Source: Rhodococcus sp. ARC_M6
GTDB taxonomy: Bacteria; Actinomycetota; Actinomycetes; Mycobacteriales; Mycobacteriaceae
Direction: 5' to 3'
Assembly: GCF_022810305.1 (NCBI RefSeq)
Contig: NZ_JALGQH010000004.1
Span: forward strand, 124,001 to 188,000
DNA: 64,000 bases
Shown: positions 3,751 to 18,582 of the stretch, piece after piece
Layout of the letters: the number at the start of each line of letters is the position of its first letter
How positions within the stretch are numbered: the stretch's first letter is position 1
Notes under the pieces: generated by a model
Databases searched by the model: none
The model's input: the letters and a program-made list of their open reading frames with translations, nothing else
What the model was told of the DNA's origin: nothing
Made by a program: the position numbers and the translations under genes

Positions 3751-6432
3751 GTGACCAGTGCATCCCCAGAGAACCCTCAGACCCCCGCCGACGCCCTCCC
3801 CAAAAGCTGGGACCCCAGCGCTGTAGAGGCTGATTTGTATCAGGGTTGGGTGGATGCGGGCTACTTCCAGGCCGACGCATCCAGCGACAAGCCCGGATAC
3901 TCGATCGTGCTCCCGCCGCCGAATGTGACGGGCAGCCTGCACATGGGCCATGCGCTCGACCACACCCTCATGGATGTGTTGAGCCGTCGCAAGCGGATGC
4001 AGGGCTACGAGGTTCTGTGGCTGCCGGGTATGGATCACGCCGGTATTGCGACGCAGTCCGTTGTGGAGAAGCAGCTGGCAGCCGAGGGTAAGAAGAAGGA
4101 AGACCTCGGGCGCGAAGCGTTCATCGAGAAGGTCTGGGATTGGAAGCGTGAGTCCGGCGGCACCATCGGCGGCCAGATGCGCCGTATTGGTGACGGCGTC
4201 GACTGGAGCCGCGAGCGCTTCACGATGGACGAGAACCTCTCGCGCTCCGTGCAGACCATTTTCAAGCGGATGTTCGACGAGGGCCTGATCTATCGCGCCG
4301 AGCGCCTGGTCAACTGGTCGCCCGTGCTGCAGACCGCGATCTCCGACATCGAGGTCAAGTTCGAGGACGTCGAGGGGGAGCTAGTTTCCCTCCGTTACGG
4401 CTCCCTCAACGACAACGAGCCGCACGTGATCGTTGCCACCACTCGCGTCGAAACGATGCTCGGTGACACCGCAGTGGCAGTGCACCCGGAAGACGAGCGC
4501 TACAAGCATCTGCTCGGCACCACCCTCGAGCACCCGATCACCGGCCGTCAGATCCCGATCATCGCCGACGATTATGTCGACCCCGAGTTCGGCACCGGCG
4601 CCGTCAAGATCACGCCCGCCCATGATCCCAATGACTTCGAGATGGGTATGCGGCACAACCTGCCCATGCCCACGATCATGGACAAAGCCGGCAAGATCGC
4701 CGATACCGGAACCGCGTTCGACGGCATGGACCGTTTCGAGGCTCGTGTCAAGGTTCGTGAGGCACTCGCCGAGCAGGGTCGCGTCGTCGCCGAGAAGCGC
4801 CCGTACCTGCACAGTGTCGGACATTCCGAGCGCAGTGGTGAAGCCATCGAACCGCGTCTGTCGTTGCAGTGGTGGGTCAAGGTCGAGACCCTGGCCAAGG
4901 CTGCCGGTGATGCAGTTCGTAATGGCGACACCGTGATTCACCCGGCCAGCCAGGAACCGCGTTGGTTCGACTGGGTCGACAACATGCACGACTGGTGCAT
5001 TTCGCGTCAGCTGTGGTGGGGTCACCGCATCCCCGTCTGGTACGGACCTGAAGGCGAAGTTGCCAGCTTCGGCCCCGACGAAACCGCACCCGAAGGCTGG
5101 GTTCAGGACCCCGACGTTCTCGACACCTGGTTCTCGTCCGGCCTGTGGCCCTTCTCGACGATGGGCTGGCCCGAGAGCACGGCGGAACTCGAAAAGTTCT
5201 ACCCCACCAGTGTTTTGGTGACGGGTTACGACATCCTGTTCTTCTGGGTCGCCCGCATGATGATGTTCGGCACGTACGTGTCCGAAGATGAATCGATCAC
5301 TGCCGGTGCCGGAAAGTCGGGCCCGCAGGTTCCGTTCAAGGACGTGTTCCTGCACGGTCTGGTCCGCGACCAGTTCGGCAAGAAGATGTCGAAGTCGCGC
5401 GGTAACGGTATCGATCCGCTGGACTGGGTCGAGCGTTTCGGCGCCGATGCTTTGCGCTTCACCCTCGCCCGCGGTGCCAACCCGGGTAGCGACCTCTCAG
5501 TCGGTGAGGATTCTGCGCAGTCCTCGCGTAACTTCGCCACGAAGCTGTTCAACGCCACCAAGTTCGCGCTCATGAACGGCGCCGCGCCGGCACCGTTACC
5601 GGCGCGCAGCGAGCTTACCGACGCGGACCGTTGGATTCTCGATCGTCTGGACGTTGTTGCAGCCGAGGCTGATTCGGCGTTCGATCGATACGAGTTCAGC
5701 AAGGCCTGTGAAGGCCTGTTCCACTTCGCGTGGGACGAGGTCTGTGACTGGTACCTCGAACTGGCCAAGGTTCAGTTTGCCGGCGACGAGACCACCGCGG
5801 CCAACACCCGCGCTGTCCTCGGCAACGTCCTCGACGCGCTGCTGCGCCTGCTGCACCCCGTCATTCCGTTCGTCACGGAAACCCTGTGGAAGGTACTGAC
5901 CGGTGGCGAGTCCATCGTCGTCGCAGATTGGCCGACGCTGTCCGGCGAAGCCGTCGACACTGCGGCTGCTACCCGGATCGAAGATACCCAGCGTTTGATC
6001 ACCGAGGTCCGACGCTTCCGAAATGATCAGGGCCTCAAGCCTTCTCAGAAGGTCCCGGCTCGGGCTTCGGGACTGTCCGAAGCTGGACTGGACGGCCAGT
6101 TTGCCTACGTCCAGGCGCTCGCGAAGCTGACAGAGCCGCAAGAGGGCTTCGAGGCCTCCATCTCGGTGGAGGTGCGCCTGAGTCAGGGAACCGTGACTGT
6201 CGATATCGACACGTCCGGCACCATCGACCTCGGCGCCGAGAAGAAGCGGCTCGAGAAGGACCTGACCGCGGCGCAGAAGGAACTCGTCACCGCGGACAAC
6301 AAGCTTGCCAATGAAGCCTTTCTCGCGAAGGCGCCCGACGCCGTTGTCGACAAGATCAAATCGCGTCGTCAGATCGCCATCGAAGAGATCGAGCGCATCA
6401 CCAACCGTTTGAAGGAGCTGGGCGACAAGTGA
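3751..6432 (+). CDS. valS: Valyl-tRNA synthetase
   Basis: Charges tRNA-Val with valine. The 893-residue class I synthetase has the HIGH-type motif in [15 protein letters not shown] near residues 51-65, a CP1 editing domain ([17 protein letters not shown]), KKMSKSRGN near residue 547, an anticodon-binding domain, and a C-terminal ValRS coiled coil ([19 protein letters not shown]). Length and motif order are complete. Translation starts at GTG 3751, probably on a leaderless transcript. Its stop overlaps the folC start by four bases, beginning a valS-folC-DUF4233 operon. Confidence 0.98.
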
Positions 6433-16183: not shown

Positions 16184-17013
16184 GTTTCACTGGTTACCAG
16201 TGCGGAAAGTGCTTCGGTACAGCCGATTTCGAGTTTCAGATCTGCGAATTCGTCGCCGCGGGTGTGTCCGCGGTTGACTATCGCAATCGTCTTGCCGGCC
16301 TTCGCGGCATAGCGCACGAACCGTAGACCCGACATGACGGTTAACGAGGATCCGGTAACCAGCACCGCGTCGGCTGCGTCAACCAGGCTGTAGGCGCGGG
16401 CAACCCGCTCTTTGGGAACAGACTCACCGAAGTACACGATGTCAGGCTTGAGGATTCCGCCGCACACGTCGCAGTCCACCACGCGAAAATGTGCTGTCGA
16501 TTCGATGACGGCATCCGCGTCCGGTGCGATCTCCACTCCTTGTGCAGCAGCAACAGTTTCGGCAAACCCCGGGTTTGCTTCTTCCAGGCGCTCGGCAAGT
16601 GTGGTGCGGGAGATCAACTTCTGGCAGTCCAGGCAGCGAACCTGCGCGTAGGTGCCATGTAGATCAATGACGTTGCGAGCCCCGGCTTTGGTGTGCAGGA
16701 GGTCGACATTCTGGGTGATGACTCCGACGGCCTGGCCATTGCGCTCGAGCGAAGCCACCGCTCGGTGGCCGAGGTTAGGGCGGGCACCGTCCATGAACCG
16801 CCAGCCGATGTGGTTGCGCGCCCAATAGTGGCGTCGGAACGCGGAGTCGCCGATGAACTGTTGAAACGTCATCGGGTTGCGGGGAGGGGAATCGGGTCCG
16901 CGGTAGTCAGGGATCCCTGAATCGGTGGAGATGCCGGCCCCCGTCACGATGGCTAGGCGTCGGCCTGACAGAAGTTCGGTCAGAGCGTCGAGTCCGGCGT
17001 TGCTGGTGTGCAC
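16156..17013 (-). CDS. Sir2-family NAD-dependent protein deacylase
   Basis: Removes acyl groups from lysines using NAD. With a GTG start at 17013 it has 285 residues: [17 protein letters not shown] (NAD binding) near residue 25, [12 protein letters not shown] with the catalytic base His nearby in IDLHGT, and Zn-binding pairs CLDC and [13 protein letters not shown] and [10 protein letters not shown] complete the Rossmann fold. The extended length with an extra ~45 residues between Zn pairs resembles class II-like sirtuins. The frame is open to 17148, so the start is uncertain. The 3' end overlaps proB. Confidence 0.9.
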
Positions 17014-17125
17014 GGGTTCCAGGATAGGCGCGTCGGTCGCCCGCCGAGCCAGGGCGGGTAGTACGCAGTGTGGAACTCGGCGGCCTCGGGTAGTCCTCCT
17101 TGGAGTACAAAGACGAGGAGTAGTC

Positions 17126-17230
17126 ATGTTCGGGATTACGCTGCCCATAGTGTGGGATGGGGCTACTTTTGGTTTTACTCCCTGGAACCAGTTTGCCCAA
17201 GCGTGGAACTCCGGAGCTTTCGCGTCATAG
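17126..17230 (+). CDS. Candidate 34-residue small protein
   Basis: ATG 17126 lies six bases after a strong Shine-Dalgarno GAGGAG (17115-17120) and opens a 34-codon frame ending with TAG at 17228-17230. The peptide (MFGITLPIVWDG..., ending NSGAFAS) is rich in Trp and Phe, has a single Asp and no Lys or Arg, and is not a clear membrane helix. It sits in the gap between the sirtuin and the 2-hydroxyacid dehydrogenase, on the opposite strand to both. An upstream CTCCT (17096-17100) could mask AGGAG (17116-17120). I do not recognise the family. Confidence 0.4.
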   Translation: MFGITLPIVWDGATFGFTPWNQFAQAWNSGAFAS

Positions 17231-17241
17231 GCAGCCGTAGG

Positions 17242-18174
17242 TCAGTAACCGGCGATCGGATCCACGAGGGCTGCGAGAGTTTCACCCTTCGCGAAGCGGG
17301 CCACGTTCTTGCTCACGTGATCGGCAAACGCGGCGGGGCGGACACCCGGCGGATTGGAATCGTGCGGCGTGATGATGGCGTTGGTCAAGTCCCACAGGGG
17401 GTGACCGTCGGGGAGCGGTTCGGGCTCGGTGACATCGAGTCCGGCGCCGCCGATGCCCTCTGTTTCGATGGCCTCGACGAGGGCATCGGTGTCGACCAGT
17501 GAACCGCGCGCGACATTGATCACCCACGAATGGGGGCGCATCTGCGCAAGCTGAGCACGCCCTACGAGGTGGCGTGTCGCTGGAGTGGCGGGCGCTGCAA
17601 TGACGAAGTGGTCTGCACGAGAATAGATTTCATCCATCTTCGACGCCGGAAATGTTGCGATGGCGCCGGGTACTGGACTACCGCTGCGATTGACCGCGAT
17701 GCTGTCTGCCCCCTGTGCGGCCAGCATCGGGATCAACGCACGACCAATTCCACCGGCTCCGATAATTGCGACCGTGGAACCACGTAAAGTACCGATCTTC
17801 GGGAAGAACTCGAACTGACGCCACGTCTTTGCCTCGATGTGCGCGGGCAGGTGGCGAACTCCGGCCAGGAGCAACATCAATGCGTGTTCTGCTACCGAGG
17901 CGGAGAATGCGCCGGCAGCAGACGTCCACGTGATGTCGGTGTCCTTGGAAATCACTTTGGCCTCGAACCAGTCCTCGATCCCGGCGGAGGGCAGCTGCAC
18001 CCATCGGATCGACGGGGGCAATACTCTCGGAAACGAATCCGGCAAACCAGCCCAGATCAGGGCGTCGGCAGATTCGATCGGACTGATCACGCCGCCGCCC
18101 CGGAGCACTGCGCTGTCGAGCAGTGCATCGGGGGCGGGGCCGATAGCTACGCGGGGTGAAGTGTCAGGCGCCAT
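17242..18174 (-). CDS. D-isomer-specific 2-hydroxyacid dehydrogenase
   Basis: NAD(P)-dependent oxidoreductase acting on a 2-keto/2-hydroxy acid. In its 310 residues the Rossmann motif GAGGIG lies near residue 140, the substrate-binding Arg is in NVARGSLVDTDAL, the catalytic Glu in TEPEPLP and the His in TPHDSNP. The substrate cannot be read from sequence. ATG 18174 lies nine bases after the ectC stop with no clear Shine-Dalgarno, so it appears translationally coupled as the fourth gene of the ectoine operon, where some genomes have the hydroxylase ectD. Confidence 0.88.
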   Translation of the reverse strand: MAPDTSPRVAIGPAPDALLDSAVLRGGGVISPIESADALIWAGLPDSFPRVLPPSIRWVQLPSAGIEDWFEAKVISKDTDITWTSAAGAFSASVAEHALMLLLAGVRHLPAHIEAKTWRQFEFFPKIGTLRGSTVAIIGAGGIGRALIPMLAAQGADSIAVNRSGSPVPGAIATFPASKMDEIYSRADHFVIAAPATPATRHLVGRAQLAQMRPHSWVINVARGSLVDTDALVEAIETEGIGGAGLDVTEPEPLPDGHPLWDLTNAIITPHDSNPPGVRPAAFADHVSKNVARFAKGETLAALVDPIAGY

Positions 18175-18183
18175 GGCTTGACG

Positions 18184-18582
18184 TTACGCGGGGACCTCGA
18201 TGAGTGGGTAGATTCCGTTTTCATCGTGCACTTCCCGGCCGGTGACCGGGGGATTGAACACACACAACATACGCATCTCGGTGTCCGGCTCGACGCGGTG
18301 ACGCTCATGGCCGTCGAGTAGGTACATCGACCCGGGAGCCAGTCTGTATTCCTTGTTGTTGTCCAGGTCGATCAACTTGCCGGTGCCTTCGACGAGCCAC
18401 ACTGCCTCGACGTGGTTGGCGTAGTGGAACTCGTTGATGGATCCGGCCTTGATGGTGGTCTCGTGGAACGAGAAGCCCACGCGGTCGCCGCCGAGAACGA
18501 TGCGCTTGCTGCGCCAGTTTCCGTCCTCGCTGGAGACGTCGCGGTCTGTGCCGGAAATTTCGGTGGTGGTGCGAACGATCAT
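18184..18582 (-). CDS. ectC: L-ectoine synthase
   Basis: Cyclises N-gamma-acetyl-2,4-diaminobutyrate to ectoine, a compatible solute. The 132-residue cupin begins MIVRTTTEISGTDRDV and contains the metal-site region VEAVWLVEGTG and YLLDGHERHRVEP, whose Glu, Tyr and His match the iron ligands reported for EctC. It lies 15 bp downstream of ectB and is behind GGGAAGGA-type ribosome-binding sequence. Confidence 0.97.
   Translation of the reverse strand: MIVRTTTEISGTDRDVSSEDGNWRSKRIVLGGDRVGFSFHETTIKAGSINEFHYANHVEAVWLVEGTGKLIDLDNNKEYRLAPGSMYLLDGHERHRVEPDTEMRMLCVFNPPVTGREVHDENGIYPLIEVPA

Follow-up and report, generated by a model that had tools for sequence, protein, structure and literature searches.

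Among bacteria with mycolic-acid membranes, the closest described systems are the corynebacterial PorA, PorH, and PorACj, tiny cell-wall channels described as having no Sec or Tat sorting signal and a proposed amphipathic helix, with CgporH and CgporA in one Corynebacterium operon (PMC3792995). The Rhodococcus channels PorARc, PorARr, and PorBRr are MspA-like (PF09203) and carry signal peptides, PorARr and PorBRr having 234 and 180 residues without them (PMC9233653). A 34-codon open reading frame (ORF) of Rhodococcus sp. ARC_M6 and a family of tiny Trp-rich peptides resemble PorA, PorH, and PorACj (PMC3792995) in small size, absence of a Sec or Tat sorting signal, a proposed amphipathic helix, and a mycolic-acid host, whereas the Rhodococcus arrays encoding such peptides can include a signal-peptide-like member. 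PorA, PorH, and PorACj are best regarded as the nearest known analogy; membership is not claimed. PorARc, PorARr, and PorBRr share the genus and the putative envelope location but are not tiny and are MspA-like (PMC9233653). The explanation given slight preference here is that the ORF is a real gene whose peptide is probably made, and that it is a lone chromosomal relative, now diverged, of putative envelope peptides forming a family; it is possibly on its way to loss.

Genomic context and sequence of the ORF

The window, i.e., the whole 64-kb stretch of DNA analyzed, contained the following features at and around the ORF:

Left of the ORF, minus strand: Sir2-family (sirtuin) gene (PF02146, E 2e-40)
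17014 to 17125: 112 bases separating the ORF from the probable sirtuin start on the opposite strand
17115 to 17120, plus strand: ribosome-binding site GAGGAG, kept in relatives G016 and G023
17126 to 17230, plus strand: 34-codon gene, MFGITLPIVWDGATFGFTPWNQFAQAWNSGAFAS, identified from its sequence, a frame-specific synonymous bias versus G023, and an identical protein in G016
17183 to 17209, plus strand: codons 20-28, WNQFAQAWN, aligning with the family motif WNxFAxWWN and lying within a predicted helix (residues 17-29)
17242 to 18174, minus strand: D-2-hydroxyacid dehydrogenase gene, right of the ORF (PF02826, E 1.5e-47)
18184 to 18582, minus strand: ectoine synthase gene, 9 bases beyond the dehydrogenase gene (PF06339)

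The ORF starts with the ATG at 17126 and its stop ends at 17230. An earlier note on this DNA placed it between a sirtuin gene and the ectoine operon, on the strand opposite to both; the sirtuin and the minus-strand neighbors were confirmed, and the right-hand neighbor proved to be the D-2-hydroxyacid dehydrogenase gene, which may itself belong to the ectoine operon because ectoine synthase lies only 9 bases beyond it. The GAGGAG that the note set six bases before the ATG is present with a spacer of five (TAGTC), and its description of a Trp- and Phe-rich peptide without Lys or Arg agreed with the counts (three Trp, five Phe, one Asp, and no Lys or Arg). The comparison set comprised the 954 start-to-stop frames of 25-45 amino acids within the window. 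Among these, at least eight aromatics in 34 residues combined with no Lys or Arg occurred only in the ORF peptide and its own nested start, and eight frames carried GAGGAG, AGGAGG, or AAGGAG at most 16 bases upstream. Overall, the ORF is very likely a real small-protein gene and is probably translated.

It had also been suggested that an upstream CTCCT could mask the ribosome-binding site. This idea was not borne out, as the CTCCT (17096-17100) lay mostly in a small loop of the predicted leader fold, the fold was no more stable than shuffles (z -0.71, 41/200), and G023 has lost the CTCCT while retaining GAGGAG. In the same fold, half of GAGGAG (17115-17117) paired with a CTC at 17085-17087 and not with the CTCCT. 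The region 16900-17400 contained no detectable sigma-70-like promoter, and one terminator-like site was found inside the ORF at 17144-17161 (0.4 expected). An RNA element was rejected, since 16900-17400 gave no Rfam match at E ≤ 1 and the folds were no more stable than shuffles (17140-17240, plus strand, z -0.24; 17126-17241, minus strand, z 0.41). A leader peptide for attenuation was also rejected because the downstream genes lie on the minus strand.

Variation at the sirtuin/dehydrogenase junction

The probable start of the sirtuin gene is the GTG at 17013-17011, because a one-base deletion at about 17032 in G023 breaks any longer frame. TATCCT lies seven bases before this GTG on the minus strand (17011-17026), the surrounding 18 bases are identical in strains bearing a VOC-like gene at the junction, and the sirtuin mRNA may be leaderless. 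The site of the ORF (17013-17241) holds different genes in different lineages, since the junction inserts vary among rhodococci; the insert names used here are readings of translations and not results of family searches. In outgroups G010 and G024, the dehydrogenase and sirtuin genes are directly adjacent or overlapping; they are separated by a VOC-like gene in four genomes (G001, G002, G012, and G013) and in G022 by a VOC-like gene together with MFS-like, MerR-like, and quinone-reductase-like ORFs. G018 carries a helicase-like ORF, and G003 has a similar sequence next to its dehydrogenase gene, although the stretch taken from G003 showed no sirtuin. The ORF was probably gained at this junction. 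As a minor observation, the 21 bases at 17036-17056 (reading VARRARA) resemble the VOC-like gene's 3' end in related strains (E 0.19-8.2, four strains) and start right after the last base in common with the VOC-bearing strains; they are a possible deletion scar.

Conservation and coding-type substitutions

At E ≤ 0.001, the peptide was found in 3 of 28 genus genomes (ARC_M6, G016, and G023), the remaining 25 giving no match. The G016 copy encodes a 100% identical protein, and its two base differences from ARC_M6 within the ORF are both synonymous. The G023 copy has 79% identity and one premature stop at codon 10 (TGG to TGA), such that the frameshifts or stops in relatives that the earlier note counted against a gene were seen, as a stop, in one of the two relatives holding the ORF, G016 being intact.

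Synonymous-biased substitution, the check proposed in that note, was observed. ARC_M6 and G023 differ at 16 bases within the ORF (3, 4, and 9 at the three codon positions; dS 0.45, dN 0.11), giving a pN/pS of 0.30 in the ORF's own frame (Fisher p 0.009, uncorrected for the six frames tested and based on 16 changes) compared to 1.10-2.21 in the five other frames. Between G016 and G023 the values were 0.40 in the own frame (p 0.063, uncorrected) and 0.96-1.93 in the others. Both flanks carry indels versus relatives and the ORF carries none, GAGGAG is intact in all three copies, and identity to G023 was 84.8% over 17126-17230 and 80.8% over 17026-17125. Purifying selection on the frame is supported by the pN/pS of 0.30, alongside the TGA in G023. 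The ORF therefore appears to have evolved as a coding gene, since the bias is confined to its own frame, yet it is broken in one relative, where the stop would have arisen in the G023 lineage.

ARC_M6 and G016 differ at only 5 of 341 bases over 16973-17313, compared to about 5% in the flanking genes. Because this low-divergence tract extends into both neighboring genes, recombination may explain the likeness; recombination and selection are not separable here.

A family of tiny Trp-rich peptides

The ORF peptide had no match in Pfam, NCBIfam, PHROGs, or PADLOC, so that the earlier statement that no family was recognizable holds for these collections, although related peptides do exist in genomes. 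A phage gene (no match in PHROGs or in a phage collection) and a defense gene (no PADLOC match) were rejected, and a match on an Embleya plasmid (E 3), which falls within a longer frame, was judged to be chance. Solved structures yielded no sensible relative: a match to the R4 surface protein (E 0.00018) covered only 11 positions, and one to designed TIM barrels (E 0.013), spanning 15 residues of the peptide, was not accepted.

Searching 401 genomes of the taxonomic family with a two-row profile (A1) returned the three true copies and 29 weak matches, 27 of which were examined as loci. One of these 27 had a start within 4 codons and a stop within 6 codons of the expected positions, and a Shine-Dalgarno sequence (G118; MIGHLPDLPSILDGDIWGFLSWNPFARWFNQF), and the other 26 were rejected as chance because start and stop were not both in register. 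The G118 peptide had matches in 11 genomes. Besides G118, 7 genomes, six from the genus of ARC_M6 and one from another genus, carry tiny ORFs with 53-66% identity to it; the G023 copy of the window ORF also matched (E 0.042), and the matches in G327 and G370 (46% identity, lying within long frames of 472 and 502 codons) were dropped. A 15-row profile built without the window ORF (A4) gave 52 matches at E < 0.06, spread over 13 of the 28 genus genomes, a count that includes its own rows and some fragments of one gene. With a 30-row profile (A5) at E ≤ 0.01, matches were found in 19 of 401 genomes, namely 13 of 28 in the genus and 6 of 373 others belonging to three other genera.

Members have 31-35 residues with the consensus MIGxLPDLP...WNxFAxWWNQF. 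None of 15 members matched Pfam at E ≤ 10, NCBIfam gave a single match for one member (E 0.32), and a PADLOC match of one member to Csx19 (E 0.049) was judged to be chance. The family is regarded as coding because the pooled pN/pS was 0.043-0.289 in all five subgroups of near relatives, and no description of it was found in the literature searched. It appears to be an unnamed, undescribed family under purifying selection. Broken members were also observed, namely a copy on an R. opacus plasmid that is interrupted by internal stops (L089 7001-7105) and a seemingly frameshifted copy in DK17 (L090 about 6309-6383). Beyond these genomes, an order-level search (profile A2, E ≤ 0.05) matched 5 of 397 genomes, ARC_M6 plus four weak matches of which none was accepted as a member, and A5 searched against viral contigs gave 30 stretches fitting the pattern, none confirmed as relatives.

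Relationship of the window ORF to the family

The ORF shares with the MIGxLPDL...W(W/F)NQF family its length (34 versus 31-35 codons), its own ribosome-binding site, richness in Trp and Phe with few or no Lys and Arg, an M-hydrophobic-G start, LP, an in-register WNxFAxxWN, and a predicted C-terminal helix. The GGAGTAGTC-ATG of the ORF is identical to the AAGGAGTAGTC-ATG of family member L112. It scored 14.2 bits with a 29-member profile excluding both G118 and itself, the best of the 954 window ORFs (next unrelated ORF, 8.3 bits), and this score was reached by 10 of 5000 composition-preserving shuffles; these rank and shuffle values are optimistic because the family was reached via a match chosen for its likeness to the ORF. 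Among 7196 small frames from the loci examined, the ORF was level with the weakest member fragments and above every other frame, including array-resident peptides of other sub-types.

The G023 copy scored 6.4 bits with the 29-member profile. The ORF was not reported by A4 in the whole ARC_M6 genome at E ≤ 1 nor by A5 at E ≤ 0.01, its HMMER alignment covers residues 13-28 only, and 568 and 424 of 3000 shuffles reached its scores of 2.8 and 4.7 bits against two further array sub-types, which it does not match. In contrast to the family, the ORF has neither the conserved Asp of LPDL nor the terminal NQF/NPF, and its final aromatic pair is missing the first W; it is also solitary and ends in NSGAFAS. 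Because the W(W/F)N(Q/P)(F/L) family end is absent, WNxFAxxWN being followed by SGAFAS, it was filed as a probable diverged relative and not as a typical member. Common ancestry as a solitary diverged homolog is, on this sequence evidence, likely.

Tandem arrays and plasmids

Matched plasmid records included Rhodococcus sp. WAY2, DK17, DK180, DK176, BH4, R. oxybenzonivorans, R. opacus, R. qingshengii, and R. pseudokoreensis. No gene was annotated under the match in 5 of 5 and 7 of 12 Rhodococcus plasmid records (overlapping sets with an incomplete gene table). Tandem arrays occur at several family loci without being universal, and three were delineated on Rhodococcus plasmids:

L088 6315-7108, pRWAY01: 65-residue signal-peptide-like leading peptide, then six peptides of 26-35 residues
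L090 6024-7108, pDK3: array similar to that of pRWAY01
L120 4684-5420, R. opacus VOC-14: array similar to that of pRWAY01

The signal-peptide-like start of the 65-residue peptide was judged by eye. These three runs mix GGGS-ended, DWRY-ended, and NQF-ended Trp-rich sub-types, and a family-type peptide with an MFG start lies just before a MIG peptide on an R. qingshengii plasmid. G027, G010, and G017 have the order 65-residue peptide, GGGS-ended peptide, and MIG peptide. At several array sites, the start overlaps the preceding stop (GGATCATGATCGG) or the stop itself is part of the next Shine-Dalgarno sequence (TTCTAGGAG, TTCTAAGGAG), which suggests that the array genes are translationally coupled. 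No neighboring protein recurred consistently around the arrays in 28 loci; of three ORF clusters, each common to three or four loci, the first runs antisense to the leading-peptide gene, the second is transposase-like by our own reading, and the third is of unknown kind. No array was found at the window ORF, as no other of the 954 frames exceeded 8.3 bits save its own nested start.

Predicted structure and possible function

AlphaFold2 predicted a helix over residues 17-29 of the ORF peptide (mean pLDDT 78.9, 88 over residues 21-30, pTM 0.48; five models 59.6-78.9) and over residues 6-29 of the canonical member L071 (72.8, pTM 0.33), in predictions that poorly constrain short peptides. The hydrophobic moment at 100 degrees peaked in the C-terminal half of four of five peptides tested, including the ORF, and beat nearly all shuffles in two of them (reached by 5/500 and 1/500), that of the ORF being unremarkable (62/500).

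A membrane or envelope site is suggested because the peptides are Trp-rich and nearly uncharged and the leading peptide is signal-peptide-like. By analogy, action of the ORF peptide at the envelope is conceivable, with the balance tipping a little against it. The C-terminal WNxFAxxWN helix, with aromatic and Asn faces, would bind or span the membrane, and in the arrays several tiny peptides and the secreted leading peptide might assemble in the cell envelope in the manner of corynebacterial PorA/PorH. A bolder and doubtful proposal would make the ORF a stray from an undescribed, plasmid-spread, multi-peptide envelope system forming a hetero-oligomeric pore or surface layer. Such a system would comprise operons in which a single secreted peptide precedes five to seven different Trp-rich peptides of about 25-35 residues, and in which the end of a gene frequently provides the ribosome-binding site for the gene after it.

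Alternative explanations

The ORF might instead be a decaying relic, a formerly functional family member left behind after recombination brought an array or plasmid segment into the junction, and now inactive; the G023 stop would then be the earliest sign of decay to be seen, and the intact copies would simply be young. The TGA, the presence of the ORF in only 3 of 28 genus genomes, the differing junction content among relatives, its isolation from array partners, and the 16973-17313 tract, through which recent recombination could explain both intact copies, are consistent with decay. This is nevertheless judged unlikely, as substitutions stayed synonymous-biased over the ARC_M6-G023 divergence, both ARC_M6-G016 changes in the ORF are synonymous, and GAGGAG is intact in all three copies.

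It is improbable that the ORF encodes a real translated protein whose Trp, Phe, and Asn richness converged on that of an unrelated MIG...WNQF family: start, length, ribosome-binding site, and WNxFAxxWN are in register and only 10 of 5000 shuffles of the same composition reach its score, even though the family profile gives no genome-wide match to the ORF at E ≤ 1 and the C-terminal half alone aligns. Similarly little weight is given to a chance intergenic ORF whose conserved bases serve, for example, as sirtuin regulatory DNA or untranslated RNA. The stop in G023, the missing promoter, the terminator-like site within the ORF, and an identity to G023 only slightly above that of 17026-17125 (84.8% versus 80.8%) would fit this reading; the frame-specific bias, strong ribosome-binding site, and rare composition argue against it, as do folds resembling shuffles (z -0.24 and 0.41) and the lack of an Rfam match at E ≤ 1.

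Genes of this kind are often missed in annotation, as in most of the matched Rhodococcus plasmid records. Should the peptides be produced, rhodococci would possess a concealed repertoire of small peptides, perhaps located in the envelope, whose genes follow one another like beads on a string. This would bear on the permeability of mycolic-acid membranes and on the origin, plasmid-borne spread, and loss of very small genes. The window ORF would offer a simple single-gene case for studying peptide function outside an array.

A second solitary Trp-rich peptide in ARC_M6

The GGGS type was present in 7 of 28 genus genomes and absent from ARC_M6 (E ≤ 0.01). ARC_M6 does encode a solitary Trp-rich relative of the array leading peptide with a signal-peptide-like start:

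G000:C41:106695-106871 (L126 1510-1701, minus strand in L126): 63-residue leading-peptide relative, E 2.4e-5 with a single DK17 sequence

It gave an E of 5.4e-26 with profile A10, of which it is itself a row, and is also present in G003.
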